Assembly: GCA_034509925.1 (NCBI GenBank)
Contig: CM067532.1
Location: forward strand, 5,606,142-5,670,141
DNA: 64,000 nt
Origin: Hirudinaria manillensis
Taxonomy: Eukaryota; Annelida; Clitellata; Hirudinida; Hirudinidae
Reading direction: 5' to 3'
The notes under the pieces were generated by a model. The model had not been told where the DNA came from and did not search any database. It was given only the letters and a program-made list of their open reading frames with translations. The position numbers and the translations under genes are program-made. This document shows, piece after piece, positions 8,380 through 51,100 of the stretch (position 1 is the stretch's first letter; every line of letters starts with the position of its first letter).

Positions 8380-10632
8380 CTTGTTGGTTTCATTGTCATC
8401 TTACACCTAATTTTCTAAAAATGGTGGTTTTTTTTCAAGCTGAGTTAGTTGTTTTCATTAATGGTAAAATGTCACTTTGAGTGTTGGTGGAAAAGACACC
8501 AGAGTCACTGGCAATAGGTGACCCACTATGTATTTAAGTATATCTATCTGTTATAATCTCTAAATGTGTTTGTTCTCACCTAATCATATAATGGTGCAAT
8601 TCTCTTACATACACACGCATAAGATATATACGTATACATAATGTGAGGGGTATTCACTGATGGAACTCGAACAACTTGAGTTAGTGTTGCTTGCTTTGGC
8701 AAGTACACTTAGATTATCTTCTGAGTGAGATATATCTCGATGTGATGTGAAGGCACCTTAAATGATTGTAACCGATTCCCCTGCCTGGTATCTGACACGA
8801 CGCAATGGCTTGTTGCCGCTACCTATGCCTGCGGGTATGCCTATTTGCTTTAGCTTTCTGTAAGATTTCGTGTTCTGATAAGAATTTTTGACGTTTCGGA
8901 GTTAACCGAATTTTCGGCAGCAAGCAATGCCTCTATTTTACTTGACAATGAATCGATTTTATTAATTTGAGTTTTTTTGGTGATTTGCAGAGATCAAGTC
9001 CTTTCATCACGCGTTGTTATTAGCGACCTCATAAATTTTTTTGGAGGTTTTAGTGACATATTTTATGCTATTTTTGAAGTTTGGAGAAATAATGAGCCAA
9101 GAAAAGATGTGACATTTTTATGACAATCGAATAAAGACTGAGTCTAAAAAAAGAGGGACGTATGGAAATAAACTAAAATACAATGTCTATGGCGAAAAGC
9201 CATTATTATCTCAGTTGTATAAACATCAGTAATTAGCAATTGTGGGACCTTGACAGGTAGTAAGAACTTATTGGACAATGATTGGATTATATTTTCAAAT
9301 ATTGAAAAGCTCGCTTTCGATTTGCTCGGGATGAACAGTTTTAGAATGCACACATTCCTCTATCTTTAACAATACTCCATAGTAGATGAAGGATTTGTCA
9401 TGCGATGAGACTGCTTCAGGCGACGATCAATTATATGGCAACAGATGCTCGTGTTCTGTTTAATTTCTCTGACTGTTTTTGCCGATTTAGATTAGCTCTT
9501 TTAATTCGGATAATGTTTACTATTCCCCTGATATCATTTAATATTATGATTACATACTAAATTAATTAACTATTTAGTACATAATGTTTTGTAGATTATG
9601 CCATAAATAACGAGAAACACAATAATAACAGCATTATCTTAAATGCTAGCTTAAAACAACAATATAAAACACGCCAGAGCACAGTTCAACGTAATATTCG
9701 TTTTGGTTGTCGCGTCCTCTGTTGTCTTCCGTGTAAATATGCTGTTTTACGAATAGCATGTGTTACTTTGGCTCGCCTTGTAGTGTTTTTATGTCGATGC
9801 TAAAAGGCAAATTTGGAGTTGCCGTTAGTTTTCTATTTATTATTACTTGTACATTATTTATTAAGGCTATGTAATTTATTTGTCTTAAATAGTTGCTGAA
9901 GAGTTATAAAGTTACTGATTGTATGCGATGGCTCACAGAAATACTGGAGAGCGAATAGGCGGTTAAAGGAAATCAATATCTATTATCATACGAAATACTT
10001 GCATTTTTTTAAGATTTTGTCTTCTTTAACAGAAATGAAATCTGTGTCTTTCAATTGGTAGGGTGACATCATTAGGAATCCAACACATAAATTGCAAAAA
10101 ATACTTAGATATTAAATTAGGATGAAGAGGATTATTAACATAGCCTTGAGTTGCAGGTGTGCTTTTGATGATTTAGCTTGTGTAAAGGTGAAGCCATGTT
10201 TTCAGTAGCAAGTTCATGGTTTAGAAGGAGTTTTGGATGTCAGCAAACATTGCTGATGGTATTGAGCTGTCTGTACCTGTCTTTAGAACTTAGTATGAAT
10301 GCATGCTGGAGTATATATTTATATCATTAAGAGTGCTTGGCTTATTGTTAAATCCTTTTTAAAATTGAAGGTTATATTAGTTAGTGCTATTGTCATCGTA
10401 TTGCTAAATATATAATATTACATGGTGTAGATTTAGTATTTGTCAGTAAATCAATTGATATTTGATTATGGAGTAAGTTTATAATAAAACTTATATTTCC
10501 ATATATATATATGTCCAAAACTGTCCTTAACTTTTATTTTAATGCAACAATCTTATTTAATAATTTTGTTCTTATAATTTAATTGTAAATCCAATTTATA
10601 ATCATGCATTTCACAGATTTGGCAGTAGAACG
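8380..10632. other. Intergenic region, TAB1 to TPST
   Basis: 2.2 kb without a recognised protein gene. The TPST start at 10633 lies 16 nt after a splice acceptor (CATTTCACAG), so a 5' UTR exon of TPST should lie upstream; the slightly GC-richer stretch near 9680-9800 is a candidate. The 69-codon minus-strand frame at 9144-9353 has no family resemblance. Confidence 0.4.
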
Positions 10633-13522
10633 ATGGCCAAGAAGAATTTAAAGAAAATTTTTGTTTGTTGCATTTTTGTGGCGATTTTAGTGACATTTGT
10701 GAGACTCTACTGCAACGGATTCAATTCAGCTCATCTGTCACATGGCATAGTTTTGAAAAACAGTTATGAGTACAGTTTTTCAAACAACGAGACCACTCGG
10801 TTTACTTACGACCATTTAACACCTCTGATATTTGTTGGCGGTATGCCGAGGAGTGGAACGACGCTGATGCGAGCTCTCCTTGACGCCCATTCGGAAATAA
10901 GATGTGGCGAAGAGACAAGGGTTGGTTCAAAAGAGTTTTAATCATTTAAACAGAACTTTAAGTTGGAAAAAAAAAGAGTTTTAAGTTAATAGCATTACTT
11001 CAGATAATACCTAGGATACTCTCGCTGAAAAATCAATGGATTCGCTCAAAAAAAGAGGCAGACAGGTTATTGGAGGGAGGTGTAACAAATGAAGTAATAA
11101 ATTCTGCAATGGCTGCTTTCATAATTGAGATCATTGTCAAACATGGAGAACCAGCTCCTCGACTGTGTAATAAGGATCCGTTCACTTTGAAATACATGGT
11201 CGAACTGGCAGACATGTTTCCAAATGCACGATTTTTGTTAATGGTGCGAGACGGACGTGCGGTCGTTCATTCTGTTATATCCAGGAAGGTCACCATCACT
11301 GGTTAGGATTTTGTAGTTTCAATATAGTGTTTCATGCTTGTGAATATATTTAGCTCCATTGGGTCCAAACGTTTGAAAGTCATGTAAAAATTCTCATTTT
11401 TAACTGAACTCTCAGTAAATAAATTCTTATTGAAGGCTTTGATTTGGAAAACTTTGAGGCTTCACTGCAGAAATGGAATTCAATAATTTCTTCCATGTAC
11501 ACCCAATGTCAAAAAGTTGGACCCACAAAATGCATGATGGTTTTCTATGAGCAATTGGTTCTTCATCCAGCTCAAGTCATGACTGATGTTCTTAAATTTC
11601 TGGAAATCCCATGGGATGAGAGAGTGATGCACCATCAAGATTACATCAATAAGCCTGGTGGAATTTCCTTATCTAAGTAAAGATTTCTTTGTTTAGATTT
11701 TCAAAAATCTATCGAAAAATGGCAGACTTGTGAAAAATCAACGGAACTATTGCAATTTGTTTAGTATGTGTTGCCTCATTCTGAGCAGCTCAATTGAGCA
11801 AAGTAATTACTGAGAAATTAGAATCAAGCATCATCTGATTTTGATGAATCCAGTCATCATTTCTATGATTGCTTGGGATAGGTTGCAATTAAGATTTTAT
11901 AAATAAATGCTAGTTAATGTTTAGTAGAAATTATAAACAATCAAATGCTTTGTAACAATTAAAGCGATTAGATGGGCCTTGCATCACATTCAGTCTAACC
12001 TTTGTATGATGTTAAAATGGAGATTGATTGGTAGATATATTGATGATTTAACATAATTGGAGCAAGTAATTGGTCCATTGATTAGATTATCCTGAAAATG
12101 TATGAGTGTGCATGCCTTGCTTTTTATGTTCGATATTGATAACAATGATCCAACAAGTGTTGTTCAGAGAAAAGTTTTGCATGACTTCCCTTTACGTGAC
12201 TTGGGAAAATAGAAAAGCTATGATTGCCAGGCATTATTTTGTTTGATAATTTGTTTTCATGATTTGTCTCCTTCAGGTCGGAACGATCGACTGACCAGGT
12301 GGTGAAACCCGTGAATTTGGAGGCATTAACGAAATGGGTCGATCACGTGCCTGAAAATGTTAAACAGAACATCAGGAGACTTGCACCGATGCTAGAGAAA
12401 CTCGGTTATGACCCCGATGCATACCCTCCGAATTATGGAACTCCAGATGCAAGCGTTTGGTAAGTTTCATGATTAACTTTGTTTATGGCTATTAGTGGCT
12501 TGGTTATCAGTTTGGCATGGCAAAAAATATTTCATTATTTTGAAATACCATTGTGCATACGGATGAATGATGTTATTAAACTTACTCATTTGTTATTCTC
12601 ATGGTTTTGATTTATTAGGTTATTCTGCTTAAATTAGAAGGAATGCTTTTATTGGAATTTGATTTAGCATGTCTATGCTTTCTCAACTTCTAAACACTGT
12701 TTGATAACATATAATTATAATTAATTATAATGCATAATCATATTTACAAAGAATGACTTTCAAACATGAAACTAAAAGTTGTTCAATATTCTCCATTATT
12801 TCAATCATTCTAAAATACACTCTTTATCCCTCAACATAATCTAATACAATTATAGTAAAATTACCAGACTTTAAGGGACATTTCCTTAAGGAAGGTAGGT
12901 TTTCCCTGTCCAAAGGTATATATATGTTAAGAGAAGAAGAAGAAAATAGAATAATAAGAAAAATCATAAGATAGAAGGAATAGCAAACATATTAAAAAAA
13001 CATGCAGATGTTATAAAAATAAAAAGCCTCTACCGGCAAGTCATAAATATCAAATCTTTTAGGAAAGAGTTTTTGTGAGCTAACTATATAATCAACAGCG
13101 ATCCCAAATTTGTTTGCAACTCACTTTGATGTCAGAATCAAATTTGCTGATCTTTCTCTTGTTCCAACCCTTGGTGATTCGCAATTCAGTCTCTTAATTA
13201 TCTGCATGGGATTGCTTACAAACACACAAGTTAACTAAGTCAATATGACTGATTTAAATTTAATTAAGATGTTTTTAAATTTTAAATAAAAGTTAAATAA
13301 ATTTTATTTTAGAAATTTTGACACAGGCAGTTTTGTCCTGGGTTATTTTTGTCCTCGGCCTTTTTGTGATTATAAATACTATAGTACGATAATAATTTCA
13401 GGAATCAAACAAACCAGGTTCTGAAGAATTCTCAGTATTGGAGTAACAAGGCTGCTGAAGTTCATTCGAAGATACTGAAGAATGGCACGTCCGATAAAAA
13501 TCCTTTCAACTCGTCAGTTTAG
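10633..13522 (+). CDS. TPST: Tyrosylprotein sulfotransferase (TPST1/2 type)
   Basis: TPST transfers sulfate from PAPS to tyrosines of secreted and membrane proteins in the trans-Golgi. Five exons join in frame: 10633-10920, 11004-11301, 11436-11676, 12277-12459 and 13402-13522, giving 376 residues, the normal family length. The N-terminus is a type II signal anchor: KKNLKK followed by a hydrophobic stretch from about residue 8 to 24. [20 protein letters not shown] is the 5'-phosphosulfate loop, with the catalytic base region at [34 protein letters not shown] (3'-phosphate site) and YEQLVLHP follow, then [17 protein letters not shown] and [10 protein letters not shown]. The end NNTQ-like block ([13 protein letters not shown]) is also conserved. 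Every key motif of the animal family is present, so the enzyme should be active. Confidence 0.96.
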
Positions 13523-27900: not shown

Positions 27901-29587
27901 TCCCTGAAGCGAACAAGATGACCTGTGAGTCTTGCATGAAAATTCTTTTTGCGTTATATGAGACTGTCCATGGTTTAATATAAAATACTCTTGATTTAAG
28001 CTATGATTAAGAGTTTTTGATTGCTTCTCTCTTAATGCATATCTTAATAGAATTAATTAACATTTCAATTAATAATTTTGTAAACAGCTTCTCTGAGTAA
28101 ATTGTCAGAGGAGGAGTTGAATGCTCTGATTGCCCATGCCCACAAACGCATCGATCAGTTGCAAAAACAACTTGCTGAGCAGCAGGTTTTGGAGAAACTA
28201 AGATTGGAAGAAGCCCTGTTCAGACAGAAAGAAGAGGATGCTGCCCTCCATTATGTTTCCATAAACCAGGAGAAGGATCTTTGGAAAAATGAGCTCGACA
28301 ATATTAAATCGAAATGGGTTGGCATTCTTGTTTATGAATATGAATGCTCGCTCCCCTCCGTGGCCTATTCTTTGTTCTCTTGAGATGAGCCATTCATTTT
28401 TTGTCCTTTTTAGGACCTTGAGGCTCAAGTGAATTTCGAGCAAGAATTGAAACGACAACTCACGAGACAAGCAGCTGCACACAGCGACCATATCACTGAC
28501 ATCCTTAAGGTTCAACAGAGGGAGTTGGAGGCAAAATTTTCTTTGCTACTCAGCGAGAAAATTGAAAAGGAAAGACAAGAATTCCAGAAACAAGTTGCAA
28601 GTTGGGTGGCCAGACTGAGAGGTATTGAAGAGGCCATTGACAGTAAGTATATTTATCAAGAATTAATTCCATATTTTGTTTGTTGTCATTAATAGTAGAT
28701 ATTTTGTATTAACCAATACTCCTAAAAATATGCTTTTTTGGATTTTATGAATAAAAATTCATTATAATTTATCAAAATTATTAATAATAAGCAAATTTAA
28801 ATGTGTGCTCAGAATTTTTAGTTAGTGTTTAGAGAAATTTCGTAGTTAGGATTGCAAGTGATTGACTTTTTTTTTAATAGAACGTGCCGAGCTGGAAAAG
28901 CAGGGTCATCAAGTTCAAAAGCTTTGGCTTGCTTGTGAATCTCTTCAGACTGCAGTAAACATTGGAAAGTTGGGAGCTAAAGATTGGCAAAGTAGGGTAA
29001 AGCCATTGGATGTTGAGATGCAATCAATAAGAGAAGCAGCTCAAGGACAACCAGCCATTGTAGCCATCCTGGATTCGGTTCCAAAATTAGCTGCAGAAAG
29101 GGGCGTCTGGACTGAGTCTGCTTTGATCGAAAGATTTAAAAAAGTCAGCAAAGTTTGCAAGCAGGTTGCTATGATAGATGAGACTACAAGTGTTGATGGA
29201 AACCTCTTCAAGTTTGCTTTGTCCTATCTGCAATCCAAGTTCATTATATCTGGAGCCAGTAAAACATATGATTCAGCAGATGATGAAGTGGATGTTGAAG
29301 ACTTGAAAAATGCTTTTACATTGCTTGACAATGCAGAGGTATAGAGGAATTCAATGAATCAATTGCAACAAACACATGACGTTTTCATTGACTTTCAGGC
29401 TTGCTTGAGGAGAGGAGATTTTGTCCAGGCTGTTCGCTTTGTAAACCAATTGTCTGGAGAACCAAAAAGGGCAGCCTCTGATTGGCTGGCTGAAGCCCGC
29501 TTACTTCTAGAAACAAAACAGATTTCTGCTGCTCTGTTGGCGTCTGCTTCGGCTGCAGGATTCACTTCTGCTGCCGGCACCTCATAA
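24970..29587 (+). CDS. IMMT: MIC60/mitofilin, MICOS core subunit
   Basis: MIC60 is an inner-membrane protein that organises crista junctions. The N-terminal exon (to 25157) has a short basic leader and one membrane helix, LFAFAALGGSIGYALYDNEI, matching the human glycine-rich helix. Later exons are near 25220-25271, 25691-25727, 25828-25938, 26515-26642, 26729-26832, 27333-27468, 27804-27924, 28088-28317, 28414-28642, 28881-29338 and 29399-29587. They encode the long coiled coil: AKSEAKVFSEYRDLVKKGKE, NALIAHAHKRIDQLQKQLAE, RQLTRQAAAHSDHITDILKV and ARLRGIEEAID. The C-terminal mitofilin signature has RVAMIDET-like QVAMIDETTS, FLSYLQS-like FALSYLQSKF and FVNQLSGEPKRAASDWLAEA. The 5' end is uncertain. 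ATG-ATG at 24970 gives an unspliced start. An upstream ATG at 24689 (MFKISSAVPKLL) looks like a better mitochondrial leader but does not join in frame through its best donor. Confidence 0.93.
26018..26160. repeat. 34-bp minisatellite, four copies, in a MIC60 intron
   Basis: Four head-to-tail copies of a unit of about 34 bp (ATTACTATGAGTTTAATAAC plus AATAACTATTATTT) lie in the intron between the exons ending at 25938 and starting at 26515. Copies are nearly identical; one has TGTG for TGAG. It is non-coding. Confidence 0.9.
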
Positions 29588-35874: not shown

Positions 35875-37499
35875 AAATTATGTTCTGATTCAAACTTGTG
35901 ATCTGAGTTAACTTTTTTATTTGATTCTTGCTGGAATTCAAGAGATTCTGATAGTATTTTATTTAATGAACAACAATTTTTTTTCTTTATTTGTGCTTCT
36001 TGGTGGCTTGTTGCATGTGTTGCTTGTGGCTTTCTCAGCTTAATGTTCTGGCAGTTTTATTAGTGAAACTAGTGGGAAAATGTGTGAAAACTTATATTCT
36101 TCAAAATTTTATGGGATTTTGTGAATTTAATCTGAATCTGTGAAAATCATAGCATTGTAGGTGCAAATAATCATTTAATAATCTGCAGACAAATTTATTC
36201 TGACATATCATTCTGTTAACGTGTTTCATTAAATAGTAATTCATTACAGAATTCTTATAATTACCTCTTGATTTTTGAGTGGCTTTGGAATTTTTGAAAT
36301 GGTTGTCAAATTTGTATTTTGTCCGTGATTTTAAACTTTGTAGCTTTTAGATTATTTTTTCATTTTACTCGTGGACCTCACTTTGGAATTATTTCATTTC
36401 ATTATATTTAAATATTACAGTAAATCTGGGGCTGACGTGAATTTTGTTGATTTATTGATTCAAAGGGGCCAGGATAATGATAGTTTAGTTATTCCCTTGT
36501 ACTTAAAATCAAGTTTTATTCATTATTATACTTTATGCAATAGATCATAAATAGTATCTGGTACTTGTGAACTGACATTGCAGTTTTGCATTTTGGATTT
36601 TGATGGATATAATGAATGTTACAAGGTGCTGGAGATCATTGGTAGATGCTAAATTACGCCAGAAGAAAGGGAATGAAGGTATTTGAGAATATCAGACCAG
36701 ATCTTACTTTGCTGTGCTTATTTTACTATGCTGAAAAAAAGCTTTGAGGAACCATAAAAAATTTTTTTTTAATTCTCGAACGAGGTGGCTCAACTGCGCA
36801 CTGCAACTTCAAAAACATACCTTGATACGTTCAAGCCACTTTGATTTATTAGGGGAATGACTGACTTACAAGTAATTTGTATCTTTGAGCGTCATCTGAA
36901 CCTCAAATTGGTAAATGACATTTATTGCTTAATGACTAAATATGAAGGATCACATGCACTGCGATCAATTTTGGACTTTTCCACTACGGTGCCCGATGTA
37001 AGATCATAAAAGTAGCGAGAAATTTACATCTTATTTTTTTTTTACATTTCTATATTATAACTCAAAGTCTCTTGACTCAGTACTTAATTAACATGTCAGG
37101 CAAAATTTGAGCGTGAGTGAAACTTCATAGAAAATATTATTGATATTATTCAGTTGCATTTTATGTATGAAGTTATCACTTTCTATACAGTAAATACATT
37201 TTATTAAATCTGGCTAATATAACAAATTAATTTAATTGAAATTCACTTCCTCTAAGTCGTCAAAAGAGCCCCCCCCTATCGAAATATTTTCTTGCAAGTT
37301 TCTTTCGAACGCATCCGATAAACCATGGTAGTATTACTGCGAACTTTGGTCAGTCGAACGAATTAATACAATATAAAAATTCCAATTGATATTAATCAAT
37401 TGATGTTGATTCACTAACATTTTGTCTCAACAGTCATTTGAACACCAAAATCGGTGTCCTTTTTCGAGCCTTTATACCGGCGAGCAAAGGTATTTCTTC
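35875..37499. other. Intergenic region, band 4.1 to U3 copy 1
   Basis: AT-rich 3' flank of band 4.1, then the upstream region of U3 copy 1. No coding exon was seen. Sequence from about 37245 is partly shared with the region upstream of U3 copy 2 (listed separately). Confidence 0.5.
37245..37499 (+). promoter_or_regulatory. Putative snRNA-type promoter of U3 copy 1
   Basis: Two blocks are shared with the region upstream of U3 copy 2. The distal block, about 250 nt upstream, reads CTTCCTCTAA, then AGAGC, CCCC, TCGAAAT and ATTTTCTT. The proximal block, about 30-50 nt upstream, reads TGTCCTTTTTC and then, across a TTTATAC/TAATATG segment, CGGCGAG. Intervening sequence differs. Position and conservation suit distal and proximal elements of an snRNA-type promoter. 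This is inference from comparing the two copies only. Confidence 0.55.
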
Positions 37500-37737
37500 A
37501 GAGTCATACTTCTAGGGATCATCTCTTTAGTTGACTTCGCCAGGACGTCAGTCAAAACTGATTCTGGTACCCAAACCAGGATGACGAGTCTCGGCGCCTT
37601 TCACTGAGCGCGAGGAAGGGTTGGCGTGGTTTGGTAGTCTTTGGAAACGAAGACGTCCACCGCTCCTCCCGTCGATGAACGCTCTCTCTCGTCTCAGACG
37701 AGTGGGGAGGTGAGAGTCGCTTTCCGACTGGTTCTAC
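37500..37737 (+). ncRNA. U3: U3 snoRNA, copy 1
   Basis: U3 is the box C/D snoRNA that base-pairs with pre-rRNA and drives 18S processing in the small-subunit processome. The 5' end AGAGTCATACTTCTAGGGAT plus CATCTCTTTAGTT matches the universal U3 5' domain (human AAGACTATACTTTCAGGGAT plus CATTTCTATAGT: GAC, A' and A boxes). Further along, CCAGGATGACGAG fits box C', CACTGAGCGCGAGGAAGG fits the box B region (human CTGAGCGTGAAG), and GTCGATGAACG fits box C. A long hairpin stem follows (CTCTCTCGTC/GACGAG), then the terminal TTTCCGACTGGTT in the place of box D (human GTCTGAGTGGT). Length is about 235 nt. It differs from copy 2 by one base (A at 37636, G at 38553). Confidence 0.88.
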
Positions 37738-37765
37738 TTTTTTTTTTATCAAATCAAGGTTAACT
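37738..37765 (+). terminator. Putative 3' box after U3 copy 1
   Basis: A T-run is followed by AAATCAAGGTTAA, conserved after copy 2 as AAATCAAGGATAA. It resembles the 3'-end formation box of Pol II snRNA genes in position and purine-rich core. Inferred from the two copies only. Confidence 0.45.
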
Positions 37766-38186
37766 TATGGAGAGACTATCTCTGTTCTAATGCTCCTTTT
37801 CCGTTAACAGGGGGACTCCTGTTGGAATACGACCAGCCGGGAGTATGATACCCTTTGCCATCTCACTGAGTAAGACGGCATCGAGGGACGCTCTCGTCTA
37901 AAGCGACCATGGAGGTGTTTATACTGACGCAGCCACATCACCTTGGTCATTAAACTATTTTTTTAAATTAATCGATTCTAATTTTAGTTTTAATAAGGAT
38001 TTCAAACGAGATAACCATTGAAAACAGAAATAGGCTTATTATACTGATGCAAGCATAGACCCCTTATCTCGCATCATAAAGTTTCTAATAGTTTGTTACA
38101 TCTTTAAGATGTAATAGGTGACAAATGTAATTAAAAATATTATAACATATAATTGAACGACCTTGTTCTCTTAGGTCATAGCTTCG

Positions 38187-38416
38187 CTTCCTCTAATGCA
38201 TCAACAGAGCGCCCCCTGTCGAAATGATTTTCTTTCGAGCTTTTTTTCTAGCAGCCATATTGCATTATGTGAGCTGTCGAACGTACAAAACAATTTACCA
38301 ACTCCCTGCATCGATTGATTTGCCAATATTTTTTTAAAAACTCAATATTACATTTAACAACCACAATCTATGTCCTTTTTCCTACTTAATATGACGGCGA
38401 GTAGCACAAAATCCTC
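38187..38416 (+). promoter_or_regulatory. Putative snRNA-type promoter of U3 copy 2
   Basis: Counterpart of the copy 1 upstream region: a distal block starting CTTCCTCTAA with AGAGC, CCCC, TCGAAAT and ATTTTCTT, and a proximal TGTCCTTTTTC then ACGGCGAG just before the RNA start. The two distal blocks are 942 bp apart while the RNA starts are 917 bp apart, so indels have accumulated in the flank but not in the gene. Confidence 0.55.
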
Positions 38417-38654
38417 AGAGTCATACTTCTAGGGATCATCTCTTTAGTTGACTTCGCCAGGACGTCAGTCAAAACTGATTCTGGTACCCAAACCAGGATG
38501 ACGAGTCTCGGCGCCTTTCACTGAGCGCGAGGAAGGGTTGGCGTGGTTTGGTGGTCTTTGGAAACGAAGACGTCCACCGCTCCTCCCGTCGATGAACGCT
38601 CTCTCTCGTCTCAGACGAGTGGGGAGGTGAGAGTCGCTTTCCGACTGGTTCTAC
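38417..38654 (+). ncRNA. U3: U3 snoRNA, copy 2
   Basis: Same-strand duplicate of copy 1, 917 bp downstream, with the same boxes: 5' domain with GGGATCATCTC, box C' GGATGACGA, box B CTGAGCGCGAGG, box C CGATGAAC, and terminal CCGACTGGTT. Only one substitution in about 238 nt was found by reading the two side by side. Both copies have CCGA where the standard box D is CUGA. Both look intact, so both may be expressed. Confidence 0.88.
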
Positions 38655-39844
38655 TTTTTCTATTAAATCAAGGATAAGTTTTTCTAGATCTTATACCAGT
38701 ACTTTGGCTACCCACTTAAGCTCGTCCGTTAACGCCCTGTTATCGAGATGTACTTCAAATAACATTTGATGTGGATTAAACCTTCCTTGGTGAAGCCAGA
38801 GCTTTTTCCATTTCCAGTCGTCCTGCGTGATAAACTTCGAAATACGTTTCCGACCAATCGGGATGGCTCGCCTCTCAATGTAACACCTCGAGGAACATTC
38901 CCCTCTAATGCGAGTAGCAAGGTTCTTTTGAAAAATATTCATGTTCGGATTAAAAGTAGACAGATATAGCTTGTGTATTTAGTAACTATAGTTATCCTTA
39001 AATCACAAATGTGTAATATCTGATAAATGATAACCATTATTTTTTTTAAACCTGACCCTCGGACGTACAAACTTGGGCATTCACAAAAGTTAGTTGAATA
39101 CCCCGTATTATATGTGTGAGTTTGAATTTACGTGCATTTATCATTCAACAAAAGTAATGACTTTCTAAAAATTCTGAGAGTAAAATAATAACTGCATGTT
39201 GCGCTCTGCACACCCCTTCCCACGTTAATTTCAGGCACTTTTATGATCATCGAAATGTGCTTGTTTTTATATAACGTTTGTCCTAGAACTTGCATTGGTT
39301 ATTGGAAATTATTGAAATGATTATTGGCGCAATAAGTGCTAAAGTAGAAATTATTAAAAATATGTTATTAGTAAAACAATGTAAAATAAAAATTTAGGTA
39401 TTTTACATTTATTAAATTTGCATTTATATCTTTGAATACTGTCTGAAACCATATATCCTTTAATATATCGCTCTTGGCATGTTTATAAGGTTTCTTGGGA
39501 ATATCGGAGTACTTGGCAGAAGCATCTAGGTTTGTTGGTTTTAGTTATAAGTTAGAGTTTCGGTCTAACAAATGTCCATCAAAATTTTTTTCCAATTTTG
39601 TTTAAGGACAGCATATGCTGTGGTGATATGACATTAATTAGTTAACTTTCTGAGTGATCTATGGAAGTCTTTAGTGACATTAAGTAGAATACATTTCCAG
39701 AGCTTTGCGTCATTCCTATGCAACTTATTCTTTTTGTGTAATATGATATATTCGTCTGCTCTCCCTTTAACAACGACATAAATTAATGTTGAATGAAGAA
39801 TGTTGACAAACTCTGATTTAGAATCATAAGAAATTTGTAAAAGT
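38655..39844. other. Intergenic region, U3 copy 2 to ABCF1
   Basis: It opens with a conserved 3' box (AAATCAAGGATAA near 38667). At 38691-38942 the minus strand has an 83-codon open frame (with DDWKWKKLWLHQG) of higher GC than its surroundings; no family was recognised and a transposon remnant is possible. The rest is AT-rich and should include the ABCF1 promoter. Confidence 0.4.
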
Positions 39845-43236
<3,392 letters not shown>

Positions 43237-49604: not shown

Positions 49605-51100
49605 ATATATAATCAGAACTCAATGGTCGCTCAACAACTCCAGTGACAGCAGGGTCCGCGACGTCATGCCGCAACTCCGCTCAGGAAGGAAATTCAGAGC
49701 CCAGGAAGAAATTGAGGAATCCGAGGCAATCCTAGCCTTCGAGGAGAAAAGAGGACCCGTGCAGGTAGACCGCCATGGAGTCGGATGGAACCATTTTCCA
49801 AGATGGTCCACAGCGAATGTGCAGACAAAAGCCGCCATGATAATCCAAGAGAGAAGGCGAGAGATGGAGACCGAAAGGATTGCGCTGGCAGTGCAGCAAA
49901 GCCAGCAAGGACAGTGGACAACCTGGGAAGACGTCATCCAAAGATCCATCACATGGAAAGACATTTGGAAAAAGTCTCCCCTCCGCTTGGCATTCCTCAT
50001 AAGGTCGGTCTACGACGTGCTCCCTTCCGGGTCCAACTTACAGAAGTGGGGGATGGTTCAAGACGCCAGCTGCGAGCTCTGCGGAGGTGAACAGTCACTC
50101 CGGCACGTGCTCTCATCATGCACGTACGCCCTTGCTCACGGTCGCTACACTTGGCGACATAACCAAGTCCTGCAGGTCGTGGTCGAGGCGGCTAAGACGG
50201 CATGCTCCCAGGCAAATGCCCGAGAAATCGCGGCACCAAGAAGAATGTACTTCTTAAGAGAGGGCTCAACACAGTACCGCAAAAGGAATATGGCCCAAAT
50301 GAGGGACTTGCTGTCCACAGCCAAAGACTGGACAGTTGCGGCAGACCTGCAGGGAGAAAGGCACTACCACCAGGTGATACAAGAGAGCGGCAAGCGGCCT
50401 GATCTGGTGCTGGCGTCGGCAGCAACCGATTCCGTCATTATCGTAGAGCTGACGGTCCCATGGGAGGACCGAATTGATGTCAGCAATGCTCTGAAGAGCG
50501 ACCGTTATGAAGAGCTGAAGATGGATTTAGAGGGGAAAGGTTATAGCGCCCGTGTGTTACCAATAGAAGTCGGAGCGAGAGGGCTGGTAGGCAAGTCTAC
50601 ATACGCCTTTCTCAGGAAGATAGGCCTTTCAAACAGGCAAACCAAACAGTTCGTCCAGAAAATAGCCGAGTCCGCAGAATCGGCCTCTCACTGGATCTGG
50701 ACAACGAAGGACCGAAGGTAAGCCTCAGACACGGCGAGGCTAGTCGTCCCTGTCCACTCCACCAAAACAGGGACTCCAGTGTAAGACCAGGAAAGAGACA
50801 CCCCGGACGGCATTCACACCAAAGTGATATAAGAAGTGCCGTAATGGTTACTTTGACGGTTTTTCGGACGGCGGAGCCCTCGCGAAATTTTTCGTAAAAT
50901 GGCGGTGCGAGTATTGTTTGTTTGTTGGAAGTCGTTGTCTGGTTATCGGAAGAAAGTATCTGGCAGGGACATCCGCTTGATCAACGGATGCGGCCCAGCC
51001 CCCGAGAGTGTCAGGATTCAGGGCCGAAACACTTGTAGAAGGGGCCATTCCTCTGAAGATCCCTGTCAGAACGCTCGTTCAAGAGTTTCTATTAATATAT
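49605..51100 (+). mobile_element. 5'-truncated non-LTR retrotransposon with restriction-like endonuclease
   Basis: A sharply GC-richer block holds the C-terminal end of a retrotransposon polyprotein (see the coding entry) and about 370 bp of 3' tail. The 5' side is cut within the coding region, as usual for incomplete target-primed reverse transcription. The tail ends near an AT-rich run at 51090-51105 with no clear poly-A. Possible target-site repeats are ATATATAA (about 49605-49613 and 51092-51100) or AAAGTGATATA (about 49599 and 50821). The second would place the end much earlier. Boundaries are therefore uncertain. Confidence 0.75.
49666..50721 (+). CDS. Retrotransposon polyprotein C-terminus: zinc knuckle and restriction-like endonuclease
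   Basis: A single open frame of about 350 codons, without introns and unlike every neighbouring gene in base composition. Near residue 120 it has FLIRSVYDVLPS and NLQKWGM, then CELCGGEQSLRHVLSSC, a C-X2-C-X8-H-X4-C knuckle, followed by HGRYTWRHNQVL. About 90 residues on come GKRPDLVLASAATDSVIIVE and LTVPWEDRID, whose spaced D and E fit a PD-(D/E)XK restriction-like endonuclease, then YEELKMDLEGKGY, LPIEVGARGLVG and a WIW end. This layout matches the tail of R2-like non-LTR retrotransposon proteins in invertebrates and fish. The reverse transcriptase domain is missing. The frame stays open upstream of the ATG into flanking DNA, so the ATG is probably internal to the original polyprotein. No disabling mutation was seen in the remaining part. 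Confidence 0.85.
   Translation: MPQLRSGRKFRAQEEIEESEAILAFEEKRGPVQVDRHGVGWNHFPRWSTANVQTKAAMIIQERRREMETERIALAVQQSQQGQWTTWEDVIQRSITWKDIWKKSPLRLAFLIRSVYDVLPSGSNLQKWGMVQDASCELCGGEQSLRHVLSSCTYALAHGRYTWRHNQVLQVVVEAAKTACSQANAREIAAPRRMYFLREGSTQYRKRNMAQMRDLLSTAKDWTVAADLQGERHYHQVIQESGKRPDLVLASAATDSVIIVELTVPWEDRIDVSNALKSDRYEELKMDLEGKGYSARVLPIEVGARGLVGKSTYAFLRKIGLSNRQTKQFVQKIAESAESASHWIWTTKDRR

Follow-up and report, generated by a model that had tools for sequence, protein, structure and literature searches.

The window, by which we mean the whole 64-kb stretch of DNA analyzed (C7:5606142-5670141, in a genome of 148,429,096 bases and 23 contigs), contains two tandem genes for U3, an RNA that serves pre-rRNA processing and ribosome building. 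The features at this locus are listed below by position in the window.

37262 to 37285, + strand: upstream element of copy 1, degenerate, with one extra C, at about -237 (from sequence and alignment; missed by ungapped scan)
37442 to 37459, + strand: candidate proximal sequence element (PSE) of copy 1, ACACCAAAATCGGTGTCC (kept block at about -57 to -40 in the upstream alignment)
37499 to 37735, + strand: U3 snoRNA gene, copy 1 (RF00012, 109.3 bits; promoter non-type-I; A at 37636)
37500 to 38660, + strand: block of RNA 1, spacer, type I promoter, and RNA 2, near-identical to C7:5505387-5506529, with identity dropping on both sides
37749 to 37766, + strand: candidate 3' box of copy 1, TCAAATCAAGGTTAACTT (block past the RNA end, 21 copies aligned)
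37806 to 37828, + strand: second upstream element, decayed (6 mismatches), at about +307 relative to the RNA 1 start, roughly 70 bp beyond the 3' end of RNA 1
37879 to 37917, + strand: weak trace in the spacer, a relic perhaps of the 3' half of a U3 gene (nhmmer E 0.5)
38203 to 38225, + strand: upstream element of copy 2, AACAGAGCGCCCCCTGTCGAAAT, at -213 (exact match)
38357 to 38375, + strand: candidate PSE of copy 2, type I form (from the upstream alignment)
38416 to 38652, + strand: U3 snoRNA gene, copy 2 (RF00012, 109.8 bits; type I promoter; private G at 38553)
38663 to 38680, + strand: candidate 3' box of copy 2, TTAAATCAAGGATAAGTT (block past the RNA end, 21 copies aligned)

A search with the Rfam U3 model (RF00012) returned matches over the full model (1 to 219 of 219) at 37499-37732 and 38416-38649, with E-values in the 64-kb scan of 2.2e-23 and 1.6e-23, respectively. 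Both copies score above the gathering score of 34, and no further Rfam match was found in the 64-kb window at gathering scores. The first-pass annotation of this DNA had described two tandem U3 genes on the same strand, 917 bp apart, with near-identical RNAs in diverged flanks. Consistently, both matches lie on the + strand with a start-to-start distance of 917 bp, and the two RNAs show one difference over 237 nt (A37636 versus G38553, as annotated). More specifically, differences at aligned sites amount to 0.4% in the RNA versus 36% in -330 to -131, 36% in -130 to -31, and 50% in -30 to -1 upstream, and to 22% (+1 to +35) and 62% (+36 to +200) past the RNA. The distal upstream repeat that had been placed 942 bp apart is also present, but our repeat search measured its spacing as 941 bp, at 72% identity.

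Among the conserved segments that we take to be boxes A/A', B, C, C', and D of U3, box C reads CGATGA and box D CCGA in both window copies, and the box regions align to the model. The same box C occurs in all 34 distinct U3 sequences that we collected, and box D is CCGA in all but two of the 34, with CTGA (alignment columns 226-229) in three copies of a second cluster at C7:5505 kb; the Rfam consensus has CUGA instead. As these forms of boxes C and D are common to nearly all copies, they do not reflect decay of the two window copies. The window genes are genuine U3 genes, ordinary in kind, which resemble the Rfam family in their full-length model match and in being separate genes with PSE-like and 3'-box-like signals, and differ from it in box D and in their copy number.

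The two-gene picture is accurate for the pair itself but incomplete if the pair is taken as isolated, since the genome holds at least 57 U3 copies in the loci that we fetched, namely, 32 dispersed copies at 14 places on seven contigs (C1, C3, C5, C7, C11, C12, and C13) and 25 in a mixed U1/U3 array at C11:5436-5493 kb. These counts are lower bounds because only the best 50 of 1482 and the best 40 of 74 candidates were scored; they include two damaged copies (C1:8117750, dispersed; C11:5436297, array) and leave out a 45-nt fragment at C5:8552530. By their upstream regions, the copies divide into an old class, type I, with 18 members, and the remainder. Nine clusters contain both promoter groups and share one plan, in which a non-type-I gene comes first and type I genes follow at 0.75 to 1.2 kb. 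The first copy is never type I in any of the nine; the C11 cluster begins with two non-type-I copies, and a pair at C5:1260-1261 kb consists of type I copies only. The window pair, with one copy of each group, is one such cluster.

Alignment of 31 upstream regions (from 30 of the 32 dispersed copies plus one array copy) revealed three conserved blocks: an element near AACAGAGCGCCCCCTGTCGAAAT, a PSE-like block near -57, and the start region. An ungapped scan allowing up to 6 mismatches located the element in 27 of the 32 dispersed copies, 205 to 233 bp upstream of the RNA start, with window copy 1 among the five missed, and in none of the 25 array copies within 600 bp upstream. After 8 copies, the scan also detected a second element at about +304 to +310, counted from the start of the RNA; it has 3 to 4 mismatches in four of these copies and 6 in the remainder, namely, window copy 1 and three copies on C7. 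The 18-mer core of the element, at up to 2 mismatches, matched the genome 33 times versus 2 for a reversed control; 28 of these sites lie in U3 clusters, one lies by a U3 fragment on C6, and four lie elsewhere. Searching 601 to 801 bp around the five out-of-cluster sites against Rfam at E ≤ 0.5 recovered only the C6 fragment, at 33.5 bits, just below the gathering score. On this evidence, the element near -211 appears to be largely U3-specific in this genome. At four fetched U1 loci, ACACC occurs at the PSE-like position in three, and GCTCCATCTATCG, which resembles the upstream element, lies about 205 bp before U1 in one. The fixed spacing of the upstream blocks, together with the downstream box, matches the pattern of Pol II snRNA-type signals, and each window copy would presumably be transcribed separately, with its own element near -211, candidate PSE near -57, and 3' box.

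We rejected a third U3 gene in the spacer, where only the weak relic was found; an Rfam search at E ≤ 1 over 36500-40000 revealed no other RNA in the spacer, and counterparts of the relic occur at the matching place in C1, C5, and C7 loci (nhmmer E 0.083 to 4.9). Elsewhere in the window, we noted an open frame with a reverse-transcriptase zinc-binding domain (49606-50721; PF13966), likely part of a retrotransposon, and, at 10564-11306 and 28862-29344, sulfotransferase-like stretches (PF13469) and a mitofilin-like stretch (PF09731).

The upstream element also raised the question of CTCF, because it contains CAGGGGGCGCT, which we take to be a motif also found in CTCF sites. We rejected the element as a CTCF consensus site: it has CGA where CCANNAGRKGGCGCY, the presumed CTCF consensus used for our pattern match, has CCA, and the fuller pattern fails. 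The CCANNAGRKGGCGCY pattern matched the genome 23 times (reversed control, 3), and U3 clusters contain none of the 23 matches. A probable CTCF-like zinc-finger gene is located at C6:984594-986313, as judged from three pieces in order that are 40 to 52% identical, one of them with an in-frame TGA; this gene was chosen by the order of its pieces, not by lowest E-value. A separate tandem array of zinc-finger coding units of about 1020 bp, most with one or two in-frame TGA codons, occupies C4:9280706-9335213. In humans, CTCF acts downstream of the U2 snRNA gene, in the termination region (PMC4802788, PMC5493778). The likeness would be a CTCF-type site, here putative, near a Pol II snRNA-type gene. 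Unlike the human site, the element described here is located upstream of the gene, near -211, and some copies are followed by another, frequently decayed, near +307.

Promoters and RNAs of this family record different histories. In a tree of the -140 to -26 region (32 rows, from 31 dispersed copies and one array copy, without the two damaged copies and 23 other array copies), the 18 type I promoters formed a single clade (support 97/96). In the RNA tree, the seven C7 copies grouped together (94/77, branch not starred). AU tests confirmed the conflict in both directions: the RNA data rejected the type I clade (p 9.4e-5), and the promoter data rejected a clade of the seven C7 copies (p 4.6e-4). 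Three features count against reading this conflict as exchange, namely, that the promoter groups were defined from the promoter data themselves, that the RNA tree is weakly resolved (one of 28 inner branches starred), and that the window pair itself is not a clade in the RNA tree, although the RNA data did not reject such a clade (p-AU 0.40).

To compare similarity by cluster and by promoter, we used the 25 copies of the nine clusters holding both promoter groups. Mean RNA distance was 0.0235 for copies of the same cluster but different promoter (16 pairs), compared with 0.0354 for different cluster and same promoter (140 pairs) and 0.0340 where both differed (134 pairs); none of 5000 label shuffles gave a same-cluster mean as low. 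Distances in -130 to -31 ran in the opposite direction (0.357, 0.222, and 0.363, respectively; 1053 of 5000 shuffles as low). Downstream distances also tracked the cluster (+1 to +35, 1 of 5000; +36 to +200, 46 of 5000), so exchange is not limited to the RNA, which we counted against this reading. All 134 pairs unlike in both cluster and promoter show at least 2 RNA differences, compared with 1 for the window pair. The RNA signal persisted without the window cluster (C7w; 2 of 5000 shuffles as low) and with both C7 clusters merged (2 of 5000), weakened without both C7 clusters (45 of 5000), and faded when C5a and C5b were removed as well (553 of 5000), so it is strongest where the window lies. 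Thus, adjacent segments of the same genes yield conflicting trees and RNA similarity follows the locus, which is the pattern expected of gene conversion or concerted evolution.

The nature of the exchanged segment is visible in a second C7 cluster (C7a; C7:5505-5509 kb, five U3 copies), 135 kb from the window pair. Compared per 50 bases with C7:5504787-5507130, the window is 72 to 80% identical before RNA 1 and 92 to 100% identical over 37500-38649, with the exception of one 82% bin at an 8-base gap; past the block, identity falls to 70% and then 38%, so the edges of the block coincide with RNA ends. By region, identity between C7w and C7a is 99% in the spacer, 98% in the RNAs, and 98% in the second promoter, versus 73% (-350 to -131), 79% (-130 to -1), and 63% (downstream) in the outer flanks. 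Unrelated window DNA aligned likewise gave means of 65.7 to 66.5% and a maximum of 76.6% for 130 bases; given this maximum, only -130 to -1, which includes the PSE, is clearly higher among the outer flanks. Several other cluster pairs, e.g., C5b/C5c, C5a/C1a, and C7w/C1a, likewise have alike interiors (88 to 94%) and outer flanks of 66 to 82%. Thus, the exchanged block includes the upstream flank of copy 2 but not that of copy 1, and this accounts for the contrast between RNAs and flanks noted in the first-pass annotation.

A block reaching from U3 to U3 could instead have moved as a unit, by segmental copying to a site next to a U3 promoter already in place, and not through conversion between two standing clusters. 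The C7w flanks beyond -130 are 66 to 74% identical to those of the other eight clusters, near the 66.4% of unrelated DNA, so that wider synteny of the clusters is not evident, as segmental copying would allow. We nonetheless regard this alternative as unlikely: in most first copies, the upstream element and PSE retain their normal spacing, a finding easier to reconcile with exchange within U3 than with insertion at random.

Selection required separate consideration, since the first-pass annotation had offered gene conversion or strong purifying selection, and the pair by itself could not tell the two apart; the other U3 copies could. The site that distinguishes the window copies is informative here. 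Across the 32 dispersed copies it is C in 25, A in six, and G in one (window copy 2), and it is C in all 25 array copies; A occurs only in window copy 1 and all five C7:5505-5509 kb copies, so that A or G is confined to C7. The consensus fold of the 34 distinct sequences leaves this site unpaired, and a change of state common to both promoter groups on C7 is as exchange predicts. Purifying selection alone, under which nearly every base would be needed and no exchange would occur, draws support from the 97% mean column identity of these 34 sequences and from kept-pair changes on both sides at 3 of 78 predicted pairs. It also accommodates five of the nine clusters (C13, C11, C5c, C3, and, less so, C1a), in which mates are little closer than copies from other clusters: the RNAs of the two promoter groups differ at 13 sites in C13, 9 and 14 in C11, 8 in C5c, and 6 and 8 in C3, counts that are close to or exceed the corresponding means between clusters (8.6, 10.3, 7.7, and 8.5, respectively). 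It does not, however, yield the sharing among cluster mates of an unpaired three-state site, a 99% identical spacer between two clusters, or RNA data that reject the promoter split, and we consider it very improbable as the sole cause. Recent tandem duplication of one gene followed by rapid flank divergence would suit the shared strand and short spacing, but is scarcely credible given that both promoter groups recur in clusters on six contigs, that type I forms one supported clade, and that the pair differs by at least 36% upstream at an RNA difference of 0.4%.

Taken together, the best explanation of the locus as a whole, and one that we hold with considerable confidence, is a U3 gene pair homogenized by exchange and further constrained by purifying selection. 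Both parts of the earlier proposal thus find support: exchange in the incompatible trees, the RNA similarity by cluster, and the block edges at RNA ends, and purifying selection, which also acts, in the column identity and the few kept-pair changes. The case for exchange between copies is strong on C7 and weaker at other loci. The window pair would be one small cluster of the dispersed family, in which the U3 RNA genes would provide the homology needed for copies of the same or of different clusters to undergo gene conversion or unequal exchange. Such exchange would homogenize the RNAs along with any DNA lying between two of these genes, and spare the flanks beyond the first and last gene; promoter regions would retain an older, separate history, and much of the RNA would additionally be held by purifying selection. 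Beyond C7 and C5, a similar process may operate.

The U3 copies of the C11 array are a separate type, about 91% identical and lacking the upstream element. The array (C11:5436297-5509931, about 74 kb) lies on one strand and comprises at least 129 full-length U1-like genes with the 25 U3 genes interleaved; 107 of its U1 copies are identical to the query, most are 316 bp apart, and U1 copies run to the end of the fetched stretch. The array U1 (unit near C11:5461500-5461950) is about 147 nt long and lacks ATTGCAC, which we take to be the U1A site of stem-loop 2, and which is present in a canonical U1 gene at each of the four fetched loci. Array U1 copies score about 78 to 91 bits versus 126.8 to 157.3 bits for the 42 U1 matches listed elsewhere. 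Amplification of small-RNA genes is widespread in this genome, with at least 46 U2 repeats at C2:12504767-12582929 (mostly about 1204 bp apart) and at least 47 U5 repeats at C11:6062382-6146320 (often about 350 bp apart). Separately, C9:3026446-3027786 carries a full-length cytochrome oxidase 1 match with a score equal to that of contig C23 (15,581 bases), either a nuclear copy or a misassembly. The C23 cytochrome oxidase 1 gene has an open frame when TGA is read as Trp, and its AGA/AGG and ATA codons occur where Ser and Met, respectively, are expected, consistent with an invertebrate animal (NCBI table 5). We tentatively raise the idea, doubtful as it is, of two U3 supplies: the 32 dispersed copies, clustered or single, most of them preceded and some also followed by a CTCF-like element, whose genes would serve as recombination anchors keeping interiors alike even across chromosomes, and the C11 array of U1 variant and U3, perhaps for a high-demand stage such as the oocyte.

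Concerted evolution is known for rodent U3B and for insect and Xenopus snRNA genes, in which near-identical RNAs in diverged flanks, as seen here, are ascribed to gene conversion. Unlike in those cases, the two promoter groups described here provide a built-in marker, which renders conflicting histories testable within one genome. Our literature search, which covered few subscription journals, found nothing on conversion in U3 or snRNA genes, or on U3 with U1/U2 arrays, that matched this case. In Euglena gracilis, many U3 copies with spacer families are ascribed to duplications, and a Leishmania region groups U3, U1, 5S, and tRNA genes (PMC2784804). The partners of U3 in Euglena are U5 or tRNA genes (PMC2784804), whereas the genes described here cluster with other U3 genes and, in a single long array, with those for U1.

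The process appears to be of a known kind, visible here unusually clearly. Because promoters and RNA bodies hold separate records, this small-RNA family offers a clean natural test of gene conversion versus purifying selection, and it cautions that near-identical copies of a noncoding RNA reveal little about the age of the genes.
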